From positions 124,001 through 188,000 of the forward strand of contig NZ_QKOB01000003.1 in NCBI RefSeq assembly GCF_003226535.1: 64,000 nt of DNA, read 5' to 3'. Every line of letters begins with the position of its first letter. Within the stretch, counting starts at the first letter, position 1. The notes under the pieces are model-generated. The model was given only the letters and a program-made list of their open reading frames with translations, did no database searches and was not told where the DNA came from. This DNA comes from Meiothermus sp. Pnk-1 (lineage in GTDB: Bacteria > Deinococcota > Deinococci > Deinococcales > Thermaceae). Shown piece after piece: positions 14,143 to 46,890 of this stretch. A program made the position numbers and the translations under genes.

Positions 14143-14536
14143 GCCTTGGGAAAGGGGCACGGTCGCGGATGGGCAACCATCTGAGGAAAGTCCGGGCTCC
14201 ATAGGGCAGGGTGCCAGCTAACGGCTGGGCGGGGTAACCCGACGGAAAGTGCAACAGAGAGCAGACCGCCTAAGCTCGCCCGAGACCGGGGCCTACAACC
14301 CCTCGCTCGCGAGCCGGCAAGGGTGAAACGGTGGGGTAAGAGCCCACCAGTGCTGGTGGAAACATCGGCAGCTAGGCAAACCCCACCCGGTGCAAGGCTA
14401 GCCCGCGTAAGCGGGTAAGGTAGGGAGGGCTTGCCCGGCCCGTACCTGCGAGAAACAGCCGCTCGAGGTCGCTGGCGACAGCGATCCTAGATAGATGACC
14501 GTGGAAACAGAACCCGGCTTACACCCTTTCCCGGGC
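14143..14536 (+). ncRNA. rnpB: RNase P RNA (bacterial type A)
   Basis: Conserved segments are present in order: GAGGAAAGTCCGGGCTCC (14191 onward), the GTGCAACAGAGAGCAGACCG region, GGTAAGAGCCCACCAG, and near the 3' end GAAACAGAACCCGGCTTA. The ends pair (GGGAAAGGG with CCCTTTCCC, P1). About 394 nucleotides, a normal length. It is the catalytic part of the tRNA 5'-maturation enzyme. A promoter and a hairpin flank it. Confidence 0.97.
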
Positions 14537-14538
14537 TA

Positions 14539-14609: not shown

Positions 14610-15080
14610 TCACCTTCTCGCGCTGAGGTCGTTCACCATAAAGCGTATGGACTGGGTTTTGTTTTGCCAGCTCACCAAGACACCCACGATCCGCTGATCC
14701 GGGGGAGGGGGTGGCTGACTGGGCTTGTTCTTGATCATAAGCGACACCCTCTGGCCTAGCTGCACTTGCTGTGGATAGAGGCTAATCTCATACCCCGAGG
14801 ATTCTGCGGTGAGAAAAAACCACTGGTTGTCCAGCGCAGAATCGGCAGCCTGGGTCTTGCGCAGGATGAAATCGATGAAATCGCTGTCGAAATGTTTGGT
14901 GACAGTGACGCGGCTGTCTATGGTGTAGCAAGAGAGAGAGCCGATTTGCCAATAAGCCTGGGAAGAGCTGCGAGAATCCTCAGGCACAAATGCCTCAACC
15001 TCAGCAGGGCCCGGACACGGGCGGATCAAGGTGCATGCACTGAGGCTAAAGGTGAGTGATATCAAGATCACCGCTCTCAT
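14610..15080 (-). CDS. Small lipoprotein cut from its promoter by the prophage
   Basis: A 156-residue protein from ATG 15080 (MRAVILISLTFSLSACTLIR): signal peptide with lipobox LSAC, then about 135 residues of no recognised family. The ATG lies inside the left copy of the prophage target duplication (CATAC, 15078-15082). The sequence next to the right copy, read on the minus strand, ends AAGGCG directly before GTATG, so the native ribosome site and promoter now lie 31.6 kb away. The gene is now downstream of the leftward phage tail operon and could be read from it. Confidence 0.7.
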   Translation of the reverse strand: MRAVILISLTFSLSACTLIRPCPGPAEVEAFVPEDSRSSSQAYWQIGSLSCYTIDSRVTVTKHFDSDFIDFILRKTQAADSALDNQWFFLTAESSGYEISLYPQQVQLGQRVSLMIKNKPSQPPPPPDQRIVGVLVSWQNKTQSIRFMVNDLSARR

Positions 15081-15082
15081 AC
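15078..15082. repeat. Left target-site duplication CATAC
   Basis: CATAC directly abuts the left prophage end at 15083 and is repeated at 46736-46740 directly after the right end. Five bases is the duplication length of Mu-type transposition. Confidence 0.8.
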
Positions 15083-15152
15083 TGTCATGTGCCACGCTAT
15101 TTGTCAGAAGTGAACCACGCTATTTGTCAGAAGTGAACCACGCTATTTGTCA
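15083..15152 (-). repeat. Left end: three tandem transposase-type sites
   Basis: CCACGCTATTTGTCA occurs at 15092-15106, 15115-15129 and 15138-15152, an exact 23-base period. Mu also has three transposase sites of about 22 bp at each end. The outermost copy is part of the terminal inverted repeat. There is no terminator between the last phage gene and this end. Confidence 0.85.
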
Positions 15153-26744: not shown

Positions 26745-27185
26745 TTTAGTTGCAGTTCGCCCAGCCTTTTCCAGTTTCGCCCTGAGCCGTTCAATGCGCT
26801 CAGTCCAATCACCATGCCATCGTTGTCGGCGTGCCTCAATGCTGAAACTTAGGGCCTCCTCGAGCTGTCCCTGCTTTTCCAAAACGATCACCAAGCGCTC
26901 AAACCCCGGGTGACGGACGCCCGTCGCGCCACCCCTGCCGTATTTCCTGCGCATCGCCTCACGAACTTGGGGGGCAATTGCTACCATTGAACGCGCGGTC
27001 CCCAGGGCAGCTTCCAGCATCCCTGGCCGGTCACGGTGCTTGTACTGGAGCTCCATAAGGTCCATCAAGGCAAAGTGTCGTTCCAGGACGCCCGAGGCTG
27101 TTTGCGCAGCCCGCTTCGCCAGCTCGAGTTGGCGATCAAGGTCAATGGGATCCACGTTGGTCAGTATATGTCCAACCTGGCTCAC
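26727..27185 (-). CDS. Phage protein of unknown function, helical
   Basis: A 152-residue, Arg- and Glu-rich, largely helical protein (QLELAKRAAQTASGVLERHF; HPGFERLVIVLEKQGQLEEA). The pattern of paired helices recalls TPR-like phage proteins. It lies between terminase and portal, at the end of the block driven by late cassette 1. No function assigned. Confidence 0.5.
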   Translation of the reverse strand: MSQVGHILTNVDPIDLDRQLELAKRAAQTASGVLERHFALMDLMELQYKHRDRPGMLEAALGTARSMVAIAPQVREAMRRKYGRGGATGVRHPGFERLVIVLEKQGQLEEALSFSIEARRQRWHGDWTERIERLRAKLEKAGRTATKPTRVK

Positions 27186-27310
27186 GCTTTCTGTCAGAAC
27201 TCCCCAGGCATTAGGAGCCTTTTTACGGGGCTCCGTGGGCAGGCCGGTCCAACCACCGGCCCCCCGCGTGCCGGGGCATTTGCCGCCCCATCGGCGGGCC
27301 AGCGGGCCGC

Positions 27311-28823: not shown

Positions 28824-29366
28824 TTAGGGGGTGATGCCGTAGAGCTCCTCGCGGATGACCCGAAGCACCTCGGGCGTAATGCCCGACTGCTTAGAGAGCT
28901 TTTCCTCGACTTTCTTGGCCACGTCCTCGGTAAGCAGGCGTTCGGTCTTCTCCAGGCGCAGTGCGACTTCGGCCGAACGCACCGCGAGGTTGAGCGCCTT
29001 GATGGGGTCGAGGTCCTCGAGCTCGGTATCCTCGAGCAGCCGGAGCGCCTTGTGGGCGATGACGTTAACCACGGCGCTGTGCAGGGAGAGCTGCTTGCCG
29101 GTGGCCCTGGAAATGGCGTCCATGACCTGCTGGGTCTCGAGCGCCTGACCCAGGGCAGGCAGCAGGTGGTTGTTCCGATGGCGCGAGAGCCCGCCTACGC
29201 TGATGTCCAGGCCCTCCGTAGCCGCCCACTGCACGATCTCCTCGTATTTGTAGGACATACCGCCCGGCTTGCGCTCCTCGCCCAGCAGCCGGGCGTCGAT
29301 CCGCTCCCGCAGACTGGATTGGCAGATCTTGCAGCGGGTAGAAGTGACATAAATCATCGCAGCCAT
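28824..29366 (-). CDS. Terminase small subunit-like (Mu gp27, DUF3486)
   Basis: About 180 residues. A CKIC pair near the start is followed by YEEIVQWAATEGLDISVGGL and SRHRNNH, the helix-turn-helix of the Mu small terminase family, then a helical C-terminal half. A GGGGG sits before ATG 29366; a second ATG at 29357 overlaps the upstream stop. It lies two genes before the large subunit, as expected. Confidence 0.75.
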   Translation of the reverse strand: MAAMIYVTSTRCKICQSSLRERIDARLLGEERKPGGMSYKYEEIVQWAATEGLDISVGGLSRHRNNHLLPALGQALETQQVMDAISRATGKQLSLHSAVVNVIAHKALRLLEDTELEDLDPIKALNLAVRSAEVALRLEKTERLLTEDVAKKVEEKLSKQSGITPEVLRVIREELYGITP

Positions 29367-29545
29367 CCCCCGATCGCCACCAGCAGGGTTGTGGCTCGTA
29401 CAACCCAGGCCAGCCAACGACGTCGCGTATGGTCGGCCTCGAGCAGTTTCACCAGGCGGCCCATATCGGCCTCGATAGCCGACAGCCGCACATCCGTCGC
29501 AGTACGTAGCGCTCGGAGTTCTTGCTCAAGGCGCTCCGCGTTCAC
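29354..29545 (-). CDS. Small membrane protein, lysis or spanin candidate
   Basis: A 63-residue protein: a coiled-coil stretch (LEQELRALRTATDVRLSAIE) and one membrane helix at the C-terminus (WLAWVVRATTLLVAIGGW). Its start overlaps the upstream stop (ATGA). The late-operon position suggests lysis, but there is no specific motif. Confidence 0.5.
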   Translation of the reverse strand: MNAERLEQELRALRTATDVRLSAIEADMGRLVKLLEADHTRRRWLAWVVRATTLLVAIGGWLR

Positions 29546-30252: not shown

Positions 30253-30281
30253 TGACAAATAGCGTGGATCAGGTTGGACAT
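30253..30281 (+). repeat. Internal copy of the prophage-end site
   Basis: TGACAAATAGCGTGGATCA (30253-30271) has the orientation of the right-end sites, and TCAGGTTGGACAT of the second motif overlaps its end at the usual 22-base offset. It lies at the boundary between early and late genes, overlapping the 3' end of the gene at 30269 by a few bases. Confidence 0.75.
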
Positions 30282-30661
30282 GGCCGCAACAACCGCCCCA
30301 GCTTGAGCGCCAGCTCAGCCAGCGACTCGGATACGTTAGCCCGCTCGACGCGACCCCGGTCACGCCGCGCCCGGAACACCGCCCGGTAGCGGGTGGTCGC
30401 CAGGTGCTCCTCCAACTCCTCTCGCTCCCAGGGCTCGAGGTTATCCAGAAAGCGCTCCATGTCCCACCGCCACAGCCGCAGGGTCTCGGCCTGGATCAGG
30501 CCGGGCACCGGGCGCACGTGCACCTCAAGGTAGCTGGCACGGTGAGGATTGTGCCCCCCCAGCACCTTGACCCAGGTCTTGCGCTCGTGCGCCACCATCC
30601 ACAAGGCGTGCATGGCCCACTCGGCCCGCCACATCGCCACCGGGTTCGAGCTCCCCCTCAC
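30269..30661 (-). CDS. Early phage protein, function unknown
   Basis: A 130-residue protein from GTG 30661, overlapping the upstream stop (GTGA). Basic and aromatic N-terminal half (MHALWMVAHERKTWVKVLGG, PHRASYLEVHVRPV) and a helical C-terminal half. Last gene of the early operon. A late-gene activator or antiterminator would be expected near this position, but nothing in the sequence proves it. Confidence 0.5.
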   Translation of the reverse strand: MRGSSNPVAMWRAEWAMHALWMVAHERKTWVKVLGGHNPHRASYLEVHVRPVPGLIQAETLRLWRWDMERFLDNLEPWEREELEEHLATTRYRAVFRARRDRGRVERANVSESLAELALKLGRLLRPCPT

Positions 30662-31446
30662 CGGCGCACCTCCTGCCAGACACGCCCGGTCCACTCCACG
30701 AGGCCCAGGTCGCGCAGCTTGGCCAGCCGCCGATCGGCTGTCTCCTTCGAGCGCCCGATGGCCTCCGCCAGCTCCTTGGCCTCAATGCTGCCCCCTCTGG
30801 CCCGGATCACCTCGAGGGCCTGGGTCAGGTTAGGCGCCAGGGTCAGGCGGGTGGTGGTCTCCTCCACCCGGTGGTGGTGCTCGAGTTGGCTCATGAATCC
30901 GGGGGCAGGATTGACCGGGGTCATGACCTGGGGCGTCACCTCGGTCACTGCTTGGGTCATGGGCATGACCGGGGTAGGTCGTCGGGGTTTCGGTTTTGTA
31001 ACCGGGGTCATGACCTGGGGTGTCGCCTCGGTCACCGCTTGGGACATATGGAGTAGCCCCCCGATGACCTTGCCGATGACCAGCCCGGCCAGGGGAAACG
31101 CGCTCGCGGCCAGTAGGGTCAACCACCACTCGAGCCCCCACAACTCTGAGGGGGCTGCCAGCCACATCGAACGCCAGTTGCCGACGAACACGATCAGTAA
31201 AAACGCGATGTTGCCCCAGAAGGCGTAGCAGGCGACCTCCTGCTTTTGGTAGATGCGGGAAACCATGCCAGTGGACAACACGAAGAGCTCCAATGCCACG
31301 GCAATACTCCAGGCAATGCCGGGCGGCAGGCTGCCGTTGTACTGGGCATAGAACGCGGCGAGGTGCGGGGTGGAAACCACGGCAGCCAGCACGTAGATGC
31401 CCAGCAGGGCGACGATGATCAAGCGGGTATGGTCAAGCCGGGGCAT
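30658..31446 (-). CDS. Membrane-anchored winged-helix regulator (putative)
   Basis: A 262-residue protein. Residues 1-150 hold four membrane helices (LIIVALLGIYVLAAVVS; GIAWSIAVALELFVLSTGMV; AFWGNIAFLLIVFVGNW; LLAASAFPLAGLVIGKVIGG). A Pro/Thr-rich linker carries the repeat QAVTE(A/V)TPQVMTPV twice. The C-terminal 70 residues are a winged-helix domain (IEAKELAEAIGRSKETADRR). The layout resembles DUF2637-type plasmid proteins and ToxR-like factors with inverted order. Unusual for a phage early gene. Confidence 0.65.
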   Translation of the reverse strand: MPRLDHTRLIIVALLGIYVLAAVVSTPHLAAFYAQYNGSLPPGIAWSIAVALELFVLSTGMVSRIYQKQEVACYAFWGNIAFLLIVFVGNWRSMWLAAPSELWGLEWWLTLLAASAFPLAGLVIGKVIGGLLHMSQAVTEATPQVMTPVTKPKPRRPTPVMPMTQAVTEVTPQVMTPVNPAPGFMSQLEHHHRVEETTTRLTLAPNLTQALEVIRARGGSIEAKELAEAIGRSKETADRRLAKLRDLGLVEWTGRVWQEVRR

Positions 31447-33094: not shown

Positions 33095-33403
33095 TCATCG
33101 GATCTCCACCCCCTTCATGCGGTGCGGGTGACGCAAGACCTCCTTGGCGGTCTCGTCGGAGCCTTTGCCCACCAGCGGAAATAGCTCAAGACTGGCAGCG
33201 TAGGCTGCGGCATGGCGGCGCAGGGTGTATTGGAGTTGCATAGGCTCGATCTGCCGGGTCTCGCCCAGTTCGTCAGCCACCCGCCACAGCTCACGGGCCA
33301 GATCGCGCAGGTTGAACTCCAGGACCTTGTAGCCAGGAACCGTGATGCTGTCGGCAATCTGATCCACGGTCTCCGGGTTATTCAGTTTTTCCATCTCGGC
33401 CAT
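33095..33403 (-). CDS. Early phage protein, function unknown
   Basis: A 102-residue protein; ATG 33403 is chosen because GGAGGTTTCAC precedes it. A longer start at 33481 would overlap the upstream gene and lacks a ribosome site. Helical (VLEFNLRDLARELWRVADEL). Many Mu-like phages have a comparable protein between B and the late region; no function is known to me. Confidence 0.5.
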   Translation of the reverse strand: MAEMEKLNNPETVDQIADSITVPGYKVLEFNLRDLARELWRVADELGETRQIEPMQLQYTLRRHAAAYAASLELFPLVGKGSDETAKEVLRHPHRMKGVEIR

Positions 33404-33470
33404 GTGAAACCTCCGGCCAAACATCAATCTGATGAGCTGAGCCGTGCGGCTCTTGTCGGTACGAAAGCGC

Positions 33471-33899
33471 TTATGCGACATGGGAGCCATGCTTCGCGAC
33501 AAATTCGGCGAGCTGGCGGTCGGAGAAGATCTGTTCCAGTAGCCTGGCGTAGTGGCCCTCGAGGGCCGCCCGTAGGCTCTGGTGCTCACGGCGCAAGGCC
33601 TCGATGTCGGCCTCGGTCTTGTCGATTGCCACCTGCAACTGGCGCAGCCGCTTCTGGTATTCCACGTAGTCGGTGTCCTCGCAGACGGCCAGGAGGAGGT
33701 AATCCTCCTGGGCCGCCGCGCCCTTGATCTGCTGGAACTCCACGCGGGCCCGGGCCCGCACCCGCACCTCAGCCGCGCGGCGCTTGAGGTTGTCCTCGGT
33801 CTCGCGCTTCTCCGCGCGGTGGCGGGTCAGGGTGCGCTCGAGCCTGTAGATCTCCTCCGGGATCGCCAGTACCCGGGCGATCTGTTCGTTGAGCGTCAC
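33471..33899 (-). CDS. Early coiled-coil phage protein (Gam-like position)
   Basis: A 142-residue protein, almost entirely coiled coil (EEIYRLERTLTRHRAEKRET; LRQLQVAIDKTEADIEALRR). GTGA overlap with the upstream gene. Place and coil content are reminiscent of Mu Gam, the DNA-end-binding host-nuclease inhibitor, but the sequence similarity is not clear enough to assign it. Confidence 0.5.
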   Translation of the reverse strand: MTLNEQIARVLAIPEEIYRLERTLTRHRAEKRETEDNLKRRAAEVRVRARARVEFQQIKGAAAQEDYLLLAVCEDTDYVEYQKRLRQLQVAIDKTEADIEALRREHQSLRAALEGHYARLLEQIFSDRQLAEFVAKHGSHVA

Positions 33900-34338: not shown

Positions 34339-34561
34339 CGCTCTCCCCCCTTGCGAACCCCTCCCATGCCCCCAGCGCCCGGCGGACCGGGTCCCACGCC
34401 GCTACGACCAGCTCGGGGTCGTGGTAGTAGGCGCGGGCCCCGGTGAGGGCGGCCAGGCGCCGGGCCTGGCCCTGGTCGCCCACCGCCGGCCAGTTGACGT
34501 AGAGCGTGCCGGAGGGGGCCAGCACTGCGGCCCTCCCTCCGGGTAGCAGCAGGGCTGTCAC
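34331..34561 (-). CDS. Early phage protein after the MuB-like gene
   Basis: A 76-residue protein from GTG 34561, overlapping the ATPase stop (GTGA). Short alpha/beta protein (AAVLAPSGTLYVNWPAVGDQ; ALTGARAYYHDPELVVAAWD). Function unknown. Confidence 0.45.
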   Translation of the reverse strand: MTALLLPGGRAAVLAPSGTLYVNWPAVGDQGQARRLAALTGARAYYHDPELVVAAWDPVRRALGAWEGFARGESDG

Positions 34562-35409
34562 GTGCGGCCCCCGCTGAGGTTGATGCGTTGGGCCGCTGTG
34601 AGCACGTGGCGCGGAGCGAAATTCTCCCGGCTCAGGCCCCTCTCGCGGTTTTTCGAGATGGCCCGGTCGATCTGGCGCACCAGCCGCAGCACGTCACGCA
34701 TGACACCGCCGGTAAGCTCGTGCATCTTTCTGATGACCTCGGGCTTAAACCCGGCCATTTGCGGCATGCTCAGCAGCTCCTCGAGCTCCACCGGTTTGGC
34801 CTCCGCCACTACGCCGATGCGGCTCTCGATGTCGCGCCAGCGGCGCAGTAGCCGGGCGTAGTCCTCGGTGCAGACCAGGATGAAGGTGCTCCCCGACTCG
34901 TCGGCGAGGTATTTGAGCACCTCTAGGCTCTCCCGCGGCATCCGCTGGGCCTCGTCAATCACGGCCACGATGGGTCGCTTCATGAGCTGCTGGTGGATGA
35001 TCCCGATCAGCGTCCGGAAGTTAGCCACCTTAGTGATGAAGAGGTTGGTGGCCAGCTCATCCAACAGGGCCTGGGGACCGAAGTCGGGCGGCGCGTGAAT
35101 GTAGGCGGTATTGAGGTCGGGTTTGTCCTCCCTCAGTTTCTGGATGAAGCGGCGGCTCGTGATGGTTTTGGAGCAGCCTGCGGGCCCGGTCACCAGCGCA
35201 AAGGGAAACTGGTCCTCTACGGCGTCACGCAAGCGCCCGGCAATGATCGCCGTGGCCTTGGTCTGCACGTAGCCCTGGGTGGGGTCCTCGAGGGAGAAGC
35301 CGAGCTCCTCGCTGAGCGCCTCATCGATGAACCGGGAGAGCTCCTCAGGGTCCTTGAACAACAGCTGCACCGGAGTCTCGGTCTGTCGTGTATCCTTGTC
35401 CTGATCCAT
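34558..35409 (-). CDS. Transposition AAA+ ATPase, MuB/TnsC-like
   Basis: A 283-residue protein from ATG 35409 with AAGGAGACTGT upstream. Walker A VTGPAGCSKT near residue 75, Walker B IVAVIDEAQRMPRE near 145, sensor region FILVCTEDYARLLRRW, and a helical lid ending LRLVRQIDRAISKNRERGLS. In Mu the partner ATPase coats target DNA and activates the transposase. It directly follows the transposase gene, as in Mu and Tn7-like elements. Confidence 0.9.
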   Translation of the reverse strand: MDQDKDTRQTETPVQLLFKDPEELSRFIDEALSEELGFSLEDPTQGYVQTKATAIIAGRLRDAVEDQFPFALVTGPAGCSKTITSRRFIQKLREDKPDLNTAYIHAPPDFGPQALLDELATNLFITKVANFRTLIGIIHQQLMKRPIVAVIDEAQRMPRESLEVLKYLADESGSTFILVCTEDYARLLRRWRDIESRIGVVAEAKPVELEELLSMPQMAGFKPEVIRKMHELTGGVMRDVLRLVRQIDRAISKNRERGLSRENFAPRHVLTAAQRINLSGGRT

Positions 35410-35456
35410 ACAGTCTCCTTGACGTGGATTGCCTCTCGGTCTGCCTCCGGCAAGAG

Positions 35457-37502
35457 CTACAGACCGTTGGGGCTTAACGGGTCGTTGCCGAGGTCGTACT
35501 CCTCGTCGAGCACGAATCCCTCGGCCAGGAAATCCTCGAGTGCGCTCTGCATCTCGGCGCGGCTCTGCGCCTCGGGGTCGGCCTCGAGCCGGGCCTCCGG
35601 GGCGGCGAGATGGAAGGTCTGGGGTTCGGGTTTGGCGGCCAGGCGCTCGAGCACCCGGTCGTGCCGGTAGGTCGGGTCGGTGAACTGCCGCCGCACCTCC
35701 TCGGCGGCCTCGAGGATGCTCTTGACCTGGGCTCGGATCCGGCGCCGCATCTCCCGCGCCTCGTCGCTGCCCGCGGCGAAGTCCATCGGAACCAGGGGGC
35801 CCAACACCTGCAGCCGGTCGCCCACCGGCAGCGCGACCACCAGATTCTGGGCGGGCATCAGGTCGTTGACCAACAGCACCACCTCGTCCCCCTGGTGGGC
35901 GATGAGGCTGCCGTCGGCCAGGCCCCAGGTGCGGCCCTCGTAAACCACGGTGCCGTTGCCGCGCACCTTGCGGCGCTCCTGGCGGGAGAACACCAGGCTC
36001 AGGTCGCCGAAGTTGAAGCGGGCCCGGCTCGCAGGCGGCGCGGTCTCGAGGAACAGCTCCTGGTATGATTTGCCGCCCTTGCGGATCTCGCGGTGGTAAT
36101 CCATCGTGAGCCATAGCAGGGCGGCGTTCTTGAACTCCTCTTCGGTGAGGAGTCGATCATTGGTATCGCGGGGATCTGGCCCCCCTTCGGCAATCCAGCG
36201 GCGGGTGTTGTGCAGCAGCCGGGCGATCTGCTGGTGGTCGCGCTCGGTGGTGTCCGGGCCGGCGTAGCCCGGAAGACCGCGCTCAAACGTGTTGTGGAAG
36301 ACCCCGAAAAACCGCTCGATATTGCCGCGGCTGTGGCTGACGCGGGGCAGGGAGTGCTCGAGGCGAATGCCCAGGGTGCGGGCGATCTGCGCCGACTTCT
36401 CCGAGCGGTAAACCTTGCTGTTATCCCAATAGATGACTTCGGGCCGGCCCCAGATGGGCCAGAGCTGGGCCCAGCGGTCGGGCTTCTCCAGCAGGCCGAG
36501 CATCAGCATCCGGTCAGTGGGAGCCTGCCCCTCCTCCCGGCTGAAGACGAAGGCCGGGACCGCGCCGCTGAACACGTCGATCGCGGCGTGGATGCGTAGC
36601 CTCAAAATCTTGTCGCTGTAGGGGTCGTACACGAAGGTGTCGCAGCGGGTCATGTCGACCATCCATAGCTCGTTGGCTCGCTCGGCCAGCACCTCCCCCA
36701 CCCACACCCGGCCAAACTCCTTTTTGCCCCGGTCGTCCATCAGCGCCACCCGGAACGCCGGGATGCGCTCCATCTGCCGCCGGACGCGCTGGATGGTGCC
36801 GGGGCTGAGGGTGTTGGTGGCGCGGGCCCGGGGATAGGGCTTGTATCGCAGGAGGGCCGGGTCGTTGAGTTCGATGATGCGGCGTATCCGCCGGGCGCTG
36901 TAGCGCGGGTGCATGATCCAGAGGGTCATCACCAGCCGCAGCAGTTCCTCCGGCAGGCGGGGAACCCCGCTATCGGTGCGGCGCTTGCGGGCCAGGCCGC
37001 TCTCCGGGTCACGGGCCTGGGCCAGCTTGCCCAGCAGGCGCCAGATGTGACGCTCGGATACCCCCCTACGGGCAGCCTCCTCGCGCACGCGCTGGGCGCG
37101 GGCCCCGTAGCCGAGTTGCTGCAGTTCGGCGTGCAGGGGCTGGAGCCACTCGAGCATCTGCTGAGCCCGCTGGCGCTGGTGTGTGGGGATGGCCTCGGGG
37201 TTGCGGAGGCTAAGCACGGTCGGCGCGAGGCCCGGGGTGACTTGGGCACCCCGCGAAGAGCCCCCCTCCTCGTCTGTCGGGTTGAATAAATGTCCCCACC
37301 GGTGCTCAGCTTGAACATCCTTGTCCAGGGCTCGAGCCAGGCTATCCAGGTCCACCACCCAGTACTTCGCCGCTCTCCCCTGGGGACGCACTTTCCGACG
37401 CTCCTCCCAAATCACACCGGGAACGCCCCTATAGCGCCGAATGGTTTTATCGGAAACCCCAAGCAGCCTCGCTGCTTCCACGACCGTAACGAATTGGGTC
37501 AT
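35457..37502 (-). CDS. DDE transposase, MuA-like
   Basis: A 681-residue protein. N-terminus: helix-turn-helix (VVEAARLLGVSDKTIRRYRG), then two more DNA-binding segments (about 120-250). Catalytic rve domain: Asp283 in LWMVDMTRCD, Asp360 in EVIYWDNSKV and Glu396 in SRGNIERFFG, a DD35E spacing. A beta-barrel and basic tail follow (about 500-640), as in MuA. It should cut and join the prophage ends with 5-bp duplication, which matches CATAC. Its start overlaps the Cro-like stop (ATGA). Confidence 0.95.
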   Translation of the reverse strand: MTQFVTVVEAARLLGVSDKTIRRYRGVPGVIWEERRKVRPQGRAAKYWVVDLDSLARALDKDVQAEHRWGHLFNPTDEEGGSSRGAQVTPGLAPTVLSLRNPEAIPTHQRQRAQQMLEWLQPLHAELQQLGYGARAQRVREEAARRGVSERHIWRLLGKLAQARDPESGLARKRRTDSGVPRLPEELLRLVMTLWIMHPRYSARRIRRIIELNDPALLRYKPYPRARATNTLSPGTIQRVRRQMERIPAFRVALMDDRGKKEFGRVWVGEVLAERANELWMVDMTRCDTFVYDPYSDKILRLRIHAAIDVFSGAVPAFVFSREEGQAPTDRMLMLGLLEKPDRWAQLWPIWGRPEVIYWDNSKVYRSEKSAQIARTLGIRLEHSLPRVSHSRGNIERFFGVFHNTFERGLPGYAGPDTTERDHQQIARLLHNTRRWIAEGGPDPRDTNDRLLTEEEFKNAALLWLTMDYHREIRKGGKSYQELFLETAPPASRARFNFGDLSLVFSRQERRKVRGNGTVVYEGRTWGLADGSLIAHQGDEVVLLVNDLMPAQNLVVALPVGDRLQVLGPLVPMDFAAGSDEAREMRRRIRAQVKSILEAAEEVRRQFTDPTYRHDRVLERLAAKPEPQTFHLAAPEARLEADPEAQSRAEMQSALEDFLAEGFVLDEEYDLGNDPLSPNGL

Positions 37503-37744
37503 TCCTCACCTCGCGATGTAGGCTGCATATGTTGAGGTTCGGAGGAAAAAAAACGGAGATCGAGGCCGTAGATGTCGGCCAACTTTTGGATTGTCATCAG
37601 CGTTGGGCGCTTCCCCCGCGAGCCGCTGAGGATGGCGTATACCGTCGAGCGGGCCAGCCCCGTCCTCCTCGCCACATCGCTGGGCGTGTCCCCATGCTCG
37701 AGCATTGCCTGCCGCAATTTCTGCCCCAGTGCCATGAACGTCAT
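37499..37744 (-). CDS. Cro/Ner-like Xre-family repressor
   Basis: An 81-residue protein: LGQKLRQAMLEHGDTPSDVA and RRTGLARSTVYAILSGSRGK form a standard Xre helix-turn-helix. It is the first gene of the leftward early operon and divergent from the LexA-like repressor. GTGAGG precedes the ATG. Its likely job is to turn down the lysogeny repressor and its own operon. Confidence 0.85.
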   Translation of the reverse strand: MTFMALGQKLRQAMLEHGDTPSDVARRTGLARSTVYAILSGSRGKRPTLMTIQKLADIYGLDLRFFSSEPQHMQPTSRGEE

Positions 37745-37753
37745 GCCTCACTT

Positions 37754-37808
37754 GTCCACATATGTAGACGCTGTTACCATGCTAGTCGTGTAGTCCACAT
37801 GTGTCAAC
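37754..37808. promoter_or_regulatory. Lysis-lysogeny switch: two operators and early promoter
   Basis: Two related palindromes lie in the divergent region: GTCCACATATGTAGAC (37754-37769) and GTCCACATGTGTCAAC (37793-37808), centres 39 bases apart, consensus GTNNACATNTGTNNAC. The leftward early promoter is TTGACA (37802-37807, minus) - 17 - TAGCAT (37779-37784); its -35 lies inside the second operator. A weaker rightward pair (TTGTCC, 16, TACCAT ending 37780) may serve the repressor. Confidence 0.75.
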
Positions 37809-37828
37809 ACTCTGCGGAGCAAAATCCT

Positions 37829-38509
37829 ATGAGTCGAAAGTTGCCGTTGGAGGGCCCGTTTAATGATTGGATTGCGGAGCGGATGGATGAGCTAGGCATT
37901 CAATCCGTTGAGGAGTTCGCTCGGTACGCGAAAATTGGCCGAGCCACCATGCACAACGTTATCCGGGGCCGGGTTTCGCCCAAGGGTACCTGGGTCAAAC
38001 CCTCCATCGAGACCCTCGAGCTGCTGGCGATCGCCCTGAACCGGCCGATCCAGGATCTCATATTTCGGCTCATGCCCAACGCTCCCGGCAGCGAGCTGAT
38101 GACCACGCGCGCGCAAGTCCGGGTGCCGGTCGTGGGAGTAGTCGGAGCGGGTCCTGGTCAGGACATCGAGGTTGACGACGGGTATATCTTCGTCGAGTCC
38201 GCATTTGCGCGGGGGAAACGGCTGGCGGCCTACCGGGTCTACGGGGATAGCATGTGCGCCGGCCGCCGGCCGATCTGCGACGGAGACATCATCGTCGCCA
38301 ACCTGAACGACAAGGGTGACTCCGGCTCAGTGGTGGTGGCCCGCCTGGTCGACGGCACCACGGTGTGCAAAGCGCTGAAGGTCGACAGGTTCGGGGCCCA
38401 CCTGATGAGCCTCAACCCGATGTACACCAACAGCACCCCGCCGATGATCCCCGCCAGCGAGGTTGCCGAGATCGTCGGAAAAGTCATCATGGTCCAGGGA
38501 CAGCTCTGA
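37829..38509 (+). CDS. LexA/CI-type phage repressor with S24 peptidase domain
   Basis: A 226-residue protein from ATG 37829 (GGAG ten bases upstream). Residues 1-80 hold an Xre helix-turn-helix (SVEEFARYAKIGRATMHNVI). The C-terminal S24 domain has the catalytic Ser in VYGDSM and Lys in TVCKALKVD. VVGVVGAGPG is a plausible self-cleavage region. Such repressors cut themselves on RecA activation, so the prophage should be SOS-inducible. Confidence 0.9.
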   Translation: MSRKLPLEGPFNDWIAERMDELGIQSVEEFARYAKIGRATMHNVIRGRVSPKGTWVKPSIETLELLAIALNRPIQDLIFRLMPNAPGSELMTTRAQVRVPVVGVVGAGPGQDIEVDDGYIFVESAFARGKRLAAYRVYGDSMCAGRRPICDGDIIVANLNDKGDSGSVVVARLVDGTTVCKALKVDRFGAHLMSLNPMYTNSTPPMIPASEVAEIVGKVIMVQGQL

Positions 38510-45820: not shown

Positions 45821-45996
45821 CGACGCGGCTGGCGGAACCCCTCAGCCCGTTGCAGCAGTATGCCGCCCTCATCCGCCACTGGCTCCACGAACCTCCTTCT
45901 CCTGACCTCGACGTTTTCATAGAGCAGACCCGCCAAGCGCTCTGGCTAGAACGCCGCTACTATCCCCCCACCAAGCCCCAGCCCGGCCCCACCTGA
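45799..45996 (+). CDS. Frameshift extension of the tail chaperone (Mu gp42-like)
   Basis: A -1 shift at GGGTTTT gives, after the slip, SDRGLATRLAEPLSPLQQYA and a further 40 residues to TGA at 45994-45996, a fusion of about 143 residues. The extension (LIRHWLHEPPSPDLDVFIEQ) has no start or ribosome site of its own. Short and long chaperone forms made by frameshift are a rule in long-tailed phages. Confidence 0.75.
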   Translation, partial: GFSDRGLATRLAEPLSPLQQYAALIRHWLHEPPSPDLDVFIEQTRQALWLERRYYPPTKPQPGPT

Positions 45997-46009: not shown

Positions 46010-46110
46010 ATTTCGCAGTTACCCACAGCCAGCCACACTATGGTCTGGTCTAGGAAGAATAGCCCCACCCGAGAACGTTCAGGACAAAGATTAAGGTCGG
46101 GTTCTCATAA

Positions 46111-46400
46111 TCCAACTTGGAAACCAGGATGGACAACTTCTACTGAGTTTAGAAAGTGAGGTTTGTCGCGCAGCAGAAAAAGAAAACTCGATCAGGGCGG
46201 TAGAAATCCAGCTTGGACACCTCAGCGCCAGCTTGGACATCGTGTGTGTAAATTTGAAAAATGTTTTTCATTCAATCCTTCGGCAAGAAATTCGAAGCTT
46301 AAGGCAAAAATCCAACTTGGACATCCCAGTCAACCAGCTTGGACATTCGAGGGGATTTGGAGGCCCAGGCTGGATTATGAGAGCGCCCCAGCTTGGACAT
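46111..46400 (+). repeat. Array of CCAGCTTGGACAT motifs near the right prophage end
   Basis: CCA(G/A)CTTGGACA(T/C) occurs at 46208-46220, 46228-46240, 46312-46324, 46334-46346 and 46388-46400, with a degenerate copy at 46112-46124. Two pairs are spaced 20 and 22 bases. All face the right end. Next to end-type sites (30269, 46569) the same TGGACA core occurs 22 bases after TGACAAATAGC, so it may be a second class of transposase site. The stretch 46014-46528 is non-coding. Confidence 0.7.
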
Positions 46401-46528
46401 CCGGACTGGGGCCAGCGGCAGGCCCTACAGGCTCGCCACCACATGCCATACGCGCGATCAGGGCGGAGATAGACAGTTTTATCCGCAACGTCAGCCCCGT
46501 TCTCAGAATCCTCATACAAGCCCACTTC

Positions 46529-46735
46529 TGACAAATAGCGTGAATCAAATTGACAAATAGCGCGACCCAGAATGGACAATTCTGACAAATAGCATGACCC
46601 ACCCTCATCATCGAAAAGGCCGCGCTCAGTTCCACCCGAACACAGCCTTTTTACGCTTGCCGCCGCGCTTCACACCACTTGATTCCAGCTCGTTCTACTT
46701 AATACGGCTACTGACCAATACCGTAGAGCATTACA
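46529..46735 (+). repeat. Right prophage end: four transposase-type sites
   Basis: TGACAAATAGCGTGA at 46529, TGACAAATAGCGCGA at 46551 and TGACAAATAGCATGA at 46583, then the terminal site CTGACCAATACCGTAG (46711-46726) and the end ...TTACA at 46735. The copies are inverted relative to the left end. The gap of about 130 bases between the last internal site and the terminal one makes the two ends asymmetric. Confidence 0.8.
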
Positions 46736-46740
46736 CATAC
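46736..46740. repeat. Right target-site duplication CATAC
   Basis: Second copy of CATAC, directly after the right prophage end. See the left copy at 15078-15082. Confidence 0.8.
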
Positions 46741-46890
46741 CGCCTTGGACGGCGTTAGTCATATCGCATCTCGCCTGCGCCAATATTAAAACAGTATTAA
46801 GCCCCAAGTGTTAATCCGCAGAAATAGCGGACTCAGAAGCAAATCGGGCAGCGAGGTAGATCAAGGCTACCACTGACAAACAGCTTGACC
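46741..46890. other. Host intergenic DNA with two degenerate end-type sites
   Basis: This is the original upstream region of the lipoprotein now at 14,610-15,080. AAGGCG, its ribosome site, is next to the duplication (minus strand). It also holds TGACAAACAGCTTGACCC (46874-46891) and a weaker GAAATAGCGGACTCA (46822), both like the prophage-end sites although outside the prophage. No gene is visible. Confidence 0.5.

Follow-up and report, generated by a model that had tools for sequence, protein, structure and literature searches.

A repeated-site array in the right end of a Mu-like Thermaceae prophage as a candidate transpositional enhancer

The right end of a Mu-like prophage from a Thermaceae genome carries two classes of repeated sites, and the second class (class 2) is probably a transpositional enhancer that has moved to the right end and lost its coupling to immunity. 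The prophage was analysed from its sequence within the window, a stretch of 64,000 nucleotides, and was compared with about 15 related phages. From the covariation of the array with the transposase we infer that the N-terminal domain of the transposase binds the array and that this binding promotes transposition. The right end would then be a two-part transposition control region. Its class-1 sites (TGACAAATAGCGTGnnnCA) would be the end-binding sites of the transposase, contacted by the paired DNA-binding domains located ahead of the catalytic core, and the class-2 array would be read by the separate Xis-like winged helix which the same transposase carries at its N-terminus on a flexible linker. 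Binding to the array would load the transposase on the right end and license synapsis of the phage's own two ends. The array sequence has been exchanged among related phages on a fixed layout, the proposed reading domain changing along with it.

Prophage termini and the two classes of sites

The prophage has a length of 31,653 bp and is bracketed by copies of the 5 bp target duplication CATAC at 15078–15082 and 46736–46740. The duplication fixes the termini, so that the right terminus given by the first-pass annotation (46735) is exact, CATAC beginning directly after it. Besides the target duplication and TG...CA ends, the Mu-like hallmarks include a DDE transposase (rve, 274–386; D283/D360/E396) and an AAA ATPase B protein (AAA_22). 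The structural set is of the Mu type (portal, F, I, T, contractile tail), with Portal_Mu, Phage_Mu_F, Mu-like_Pro, Mu-like_gpT, DUF2586 and Baseplate_J present. The gene order is unusual for a Mu-like prophage: genes for tail, portal, terminase, B protein and transposase lie to the left on the minus strand, and those for repressor, protease, capsid and sheath to the right on the plus strand. The likely operator region (37752–37830, between the Cro-like and S24 repressor genes) contains palindromic GTCCACATATGTAGAC-type sites, unlike class 2. The membrane protein encoded at 30658–31446 is conserved across the phage group, and its winged helix is of two types in closely related Thermus phages. 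A long open reading frame in the left part of the window contains 63–72 bp tandem repeats (1252–1876). The coordinates of the features are collected in Table 1.

Table 1. Features of the window and array motifs of the related phages.
Feature	Position or phage	Strand
rnpB	14147–14537	
Prophage	15083–46735	
mraZ	47132	
Left end, three class-1 sites	15083–15152	-
Internal composite class-1 + class-2 site, between terminase and portal genes	27168–27196	-
Small-terminase candidate	28824–29417	
Internal composite class-1 + class-2 site	30253–30281	+
Membrane protein with C-terminal winged helix, rejected candidate class-2 reader	30658–31446	-
MuB-like AAA ATPase (as listed ORF; true start probably nearer 35.4 kb)	34558–36114	-
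DDE transposase, TnsB/MuA-like (D283, D360, E396)	35457–37502	-
Codons of the transposase N-terminal winged helix, proposed class-2 reader	37302–37502	-
Cro/Ner-like HTH protein	37499–37744	-
S24-type repressor (listed ORF from 37529)	37829–38509	+
Third repeated motif GTTCTCATAATCC	46101–46113, 46499–46511, ~46371–46383	+, +, inverted
Two weak class-2 units: 46112 CCAACTTGGAAAC, 46124 CCAGGATGGACAA	46112–46136	+
Class-2 array, five CCAGCTTGGACAT-type units	46208–46400	+
Right-end class-1 site, 22 bp before the next one	46529–46552	+
Right-end class-1 site with TGGACA 22 bp further (composite)	46551–46578	+
Right-end class-1 site	46583–46606	+
Terminal right-end class-1 site, degenerate: TGACCAATACC / TGACCAATACCGTAGAGCATTACA	46712–46735	+
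Array motif CCACTCCGCCA	G026/G028/G039	
Array motif CGCTGTCTCA	G050/G067/G068	
Array motif CGCTGTGCCA	G054/G066	
Array motif CGCTGTCTAC	L077/L089	
Array motif CTGTGAAC	L075	
Array motif TGCGGTTTG	G038	
Array motif TGTCCGCA	G043/G030	
Array motif ATTGCCGATACCC (region interrupted by an insertion element)	G023	

The two ends are strongly asymmetric, as the first-pass annotation had described them, with a compact left end of 70 bp and a right end of about 620 bp that holds both classes of sites. The right end is non-coding: the last phage gene stops at 45996, and the open reading frames within 46111–46735 are short and overlap across both strands. Exact copies of the class-1 sequence TGACAAATAGC occur in the left end at 15096, 15119 and 15142 (minus strand), none of them more than 70 bp from the terminus (15083), and in the right end at 46529, 46551 and 46583 (plus strand). 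With the degenerate terminal copy, the right end has the four class-1 sites attributed to it, and the left end has its three. A near-copy of the class-1 site lies in the flanking DNA at 46874–46884, 138 bp beyond the right terminus, and the terminal sequences of two relatives (G054 and L077) are duplicated; these suggest remnants of earlier insertions.

Five units of the class-2 sequence CCAGCTTGGACAT with at most one mismatch start at 46208, 46228, 46312, 46334 and 46388, and weaker matches at 46112, 46124 and 46567 extend the number of at least five proposed earlier. The spacings between the five units are 20, 84, 22 and 54 bp; steps of 20–22 bases, which had been thought to be frequent, therefore hold for two class-2 steps and one class-1 step and not for the remainder. 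The array exceeds chance, its top 8-mer occurring five times against a maximum of three in 200 dinucleotide shuffles. Nor is the array motif scattered over many unrelated loci: in the whole genome (3.5 Mb) the pattern CCARCTTGGACAY has seven matches, five of them inside the array, and a reversed control pattern has none. The 750 bp next to the left terminus contained no class-2 unit. A structured RNA as the role of the array was rejected, as the RNA structure of the right end is not unusual (z = -0.85). A search of the region for sigma-70 promoters gave two weak matches and no strong one.

The TGGACA core had been noted at a 22-base offset from two class-1 sites. The composite TGACARAWAGC-N11-TGGACA is present at both (30253 and 46551) with zero mismatches, and a third such copy was found on the minus strand at 27169–27196; at up to two mismatches, 0.02 matches would be expected by chance. 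The earlier argument from this offset to one protein is compatible with a further transposase domain as the reader of class 2, but does not prove it. The two internal composites point outward around the terminase region, and in one relative (G026) the position corresponding to the one at 27168–27196 is occupied by a class-1 site. A third motif, TTCTCATAATCC, flanks the array; relatives have similar CTCTCAT motifs and also TGTTTCAC or ACTTAGTAC repeats.

Related phages and their chromosomal address

Relatives of the transposase were found in Thermaceae genomes and viral contigs, several of them from named Thermus and Meiothermus species. The window transposase as a single query was unsuccessful in the genome and viral collections and an alignment query succeeded. 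Searches of phage records returned only distant transposase matches and no DNA match. A search for the exact window motif gave no match among the relatives, because the array motif changes between phages (Table 1, in which the relatives carry our own labels). A search of the literature available to us found no description of these right-end arrays.

The relatives, which are few in number and partly related to each other, have a common right-end layout in which the end sites are outermost and the array lies about 280–650 bp inward. Those that reach the terminus show a long non-coding stretch with class-1-like sites outside and a different repeated motif inboard. In the three phages with a located left end, class 2 is not present in the left 750 bp. 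The commonest repeated 8-mer varies by phage type over 16 right-end regions; its count was unreached by any of 200 shuffles in 13 of these, P was 0.005 for L075 and 0.015 for L079, and G055 was not significant. The array consensus, partly picked by eye ahead of this objective check, is weak for the same three phages. Among close relatives the position and orientation of the units are held and the sequence is altered in all units together. The units of G038 (GCGGTTTG) lie 410, 398, 386, 319 and 287 bp from the terminus and those of G043 (GTCCGCA) 401, 389, 377, 308 and 277 bp from it, with one extra. The Thermus phages have an inverted pair near 565/550, tandem units near 490–425 and frequently a single unit near 198, irrespective of the sequence. 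Array steps of 10 or 12 bp occur in several of the phages.

Thermaceae genomes without a phage have rnpB (RNase P RNA) just upstream of mraZ, and nearly all phage copies with readable flanks lie between or within these two genes; the exception is G023, with no mraZ found nearby. The insertions are thus concentrated at one address and do not show the low target specificity of a Mu-like phage. An intact rnpB and mraZ flank the window phage and several of the Meiothermus phages. In Thermus the phage is inserted inside rnpB. For the G050 phage (contig C1, 1907513–1942360), joining the host flanks minus one copy of the duplication gives a continuous rnpB which matches the phage rnpB at 343 of 367 positions; in G068 rnpB is split at a different place. 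The target duplications also differ (CATAC in the window phage, CCCAC in G050 and CCAGA in G068), which indicates separate insertions. Six Thermus genomes have a split or truncated host rnpB and a full-length rnpB on the phage, the latter scoring about 255–273 bits, near the scores of intact host genes. In these genomes the essential host RNA gene therefore seems to have been replaced by the phage copy.

Four Meiothermus phages, L028, L030, L032 and L027 (G028, G039, G026 and G041), encode a MraZ paralogue 41–46% identical to host MraZ (for example G026, contig C18, 16379–16765). Three of the four were seen adjoining host mraZ, and the window phage is without the paralogue, which is possibly a target selector or a cell-division regulator. 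Prophages adjoining mraZ have been reported in T. aquaticus Y51MC23 and Thermus sp. 2.9 (PMC4605624); they belong to the same phage group and occupy the same chromosomal place, Thermus sp. 2.9 being our G068. In the part of that report available to us, no discussion of ends, site arrays or rnpB was found for these prophages.

Candidate readers of the array

The transposase was modelled with a winged helix (residues 1–60), a disordered linker (64–100) and a TnsB/MuA-like body, and so has the separate N-terminal DNA-binding domain expected of an enhancer-type system. This domain is hypervariable and is placed on its flexible linker like the enhancer-binding domain of MuA. Modelled alone, it gave a confident winged helix (pLDDT 87.5) whose nearest folds, weak matches with a best E of about 0.01, are Xis/excisionase and BldC; the N-terminal domain of MuA itself was not in the top 50 fold matches. 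HTH_17 was detected in 10 of the 15 member transposases and the Mu N-terminal Pfam family in none of them. Xis/excisionase and BldC proteins bind short direct (tandem) repeats, a mode of binding which fits the 10 and 12 bp steps of the arrays. The N-terminal subdomain of MuA likewise forms a winged helix of its own, which binds the Mu enhancer (PMC3362531), and it is this precedent, together with the winged-helix architecture, that leads to the proposal of class 2 as a transpositional enhancer.

Of the candidates compared, the N-terminal winged helix is the best supported as the module that the array type appears to track. The Mantel correlation of array similarity with this domain was 0.75–0.77, and 0.63–0.64 as a partial correlation given the transposase core, which by itself gave 0.53. 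The values for the other modules were 0.32–0.36 (repressor), 0.46 (membrane-winged-helix protein), 0.63 (MuB) and 0.61 (small-terminase candidate), with partial correlations of at most 0.49. As modules are co-inherited, these correlations partly reflect shared ancestry. In a scan of 77 modules three equalled or exceeded the N-terminal domain, each present in just 10–12 phages, and the best other broadly present module had a partial correlation of 0.60.

Discordant pairs of phages gave a similar picture, in that none of the other modules tested surpassed the N-terminal domain at separating array-same from array-different pairs. Array and N-terminus are both in common in G043/G030 and L077/L089, and both differ in G038/G043 and L075/L089, in which several other candidate modules are nearly identical. 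N-terminal identity is 67–97% in array-sharing pairs and 38–83% in array-different pairs. The overlap at 67–83% is a real weakness of the N-terminal-domain reading, as does the exceptional pair G066/G068, with different arrays and N-terminal domains 83% identical; the pairs G050/G068 and G054/G066 have the same arrays with domains 67% identical. Binding of the second class by another transposase domain, in the manner of the Mu enhancer, had been one suggestion of the first-pass annotation; covariation and architecture make it the best-supported option tested.

It is unlikely, though worth some weight, that the array serves transcription control (as late-activator sites, a further suggestion of the first-pass annotation, or as host-factor sites) or is read by another variable phage protein. 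The two internal composites adjoin gene starts and terminators, other right-end motifs are unexplained, and the family encoded at 33095–33589 scores close to the N-terminal domain in the Mantel tests. Against this, the region of the 33095–33589 homologue is ~98% identical in G050 and G054 with different arrays, a fixed host factor hardly accounts for different arrays inside one genus, and the region is without a strong promoter. On the discordant pairs this family was rejected as array reader, and likewise the repressor, Cro, the small terminase and MuB.

Class 2 might instead be bound by the membrane-anchored winged-helix protein, as a membrane tether of the right end or as the site of a membrane-bound regulator, an explanation we consider improbable. 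A residue-level partition of five close Thermus phages at first favoured it: the winged helix of this protein switches type exactly with the array, which the N-terminus of the transposase matches at one residue only. The inclusion of more phages overturned this result. The winged-helix domain is identical in L075/L089 and G038/G043 despite different arrays, its recognition helix hardly differs among G026, G050 and G055, which have unrelated arrays, and its Mantel correlation is low.

That the array is a packaging (pac) site for the small terminase is very improbable. Packaging in Mu-like phages starts from one end and small terminases recognize repeated sites, but the array lies 340–620 bp inside the terminus, far from the expected Mu-type first cut, and its sequence does not follow the small-terminase candidate, which is 98–100% identical in three of four array-different pairs. 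Distant repressor or Cro operators (stoperators) forming part of immunity, suggested by the general likeness to arrays of asymmetric sites outside genes and by the fact that operators differ between immunity groups, are scarcely credible: the array does not follow the repressor DNA-binding domain, which is 93% (G050/G054) and 99% (G066/G068) identical in phages with different arrays and 45% identical in G026/G028 with a common array, and the operator region of the window phage has a different motif, so that the earlier suggestion of repressor sites is contradicted.

If the transpositional-enhancer reading is taken further, the array might act as a phage identity tag, enhancer and reader diversifying together so that a transposase would mobilize only its own genome. 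We put this forward tentatively, as less probable than the enhancer role itself. Competition for one chromosomal site would drive such diversification, on a fixed scaffold and independently of repressor immunity.

Comparison with known systems

The transposase from residue ~105 has its best sequence and fold match in TnsB (ShCAST type V-K, Tn7). Multiple short end sites and asymmetric ends are likewise shared with TnsB systems. For the extra Xis-like domain at the N-terminus, however, no match was obtained in TnsB, and the present element, with its tail and capsid genes, is a phage. To our knowledge, no second class of sites occurs in TnsB systems.

With Mu the phage shares the DDE core, the MuB-like ATPase and the 5 bp target duplication and, with respect to the Mu enhancer (IAS) and MuA I-alpha, a winged helix set apart at the transposase N-terminus and an accessory DNA site that is not one of the end sites. 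Unlike the Mu enhancer, which overlaps repressor operators near the left end, the array is located within the right end; its sequence differs among close relatives, and the repressor does not share it. The matches of the N-terminal domain are to HTH_17/MerR/Xis models and not to the Mu N-terminal family. Since both this homology to MuA I-alpha and the operator overlap are lacking, we do not assign the array to the Mu enhancer family in the strict sense.

Mu and D108 have similar ends and different N-terminal transposase domains and enhancers. In that pair, which provides two array types, the change coincides with immunity, whereas in the present group there are many types and array and immunity reassort independently. 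Transpositional enhancers are, as far as we know, known in detail essentially only from Mu, in which enhancer and operator are the same DNA and their roles are therefore hard to separate genetically. Here the two look uncoupled. Many related phages have the layout in common, and close ones the transposase core as well, and they differ in arrays and N-terminal domains, which makes enhancer–reader specificity directly testable by domain swaps. If the proposal is true, these would be self-recognizing transposases with interchangeable address tags. The group also supplies an example of a Mu-like phage whose chromosomal address is fixed.
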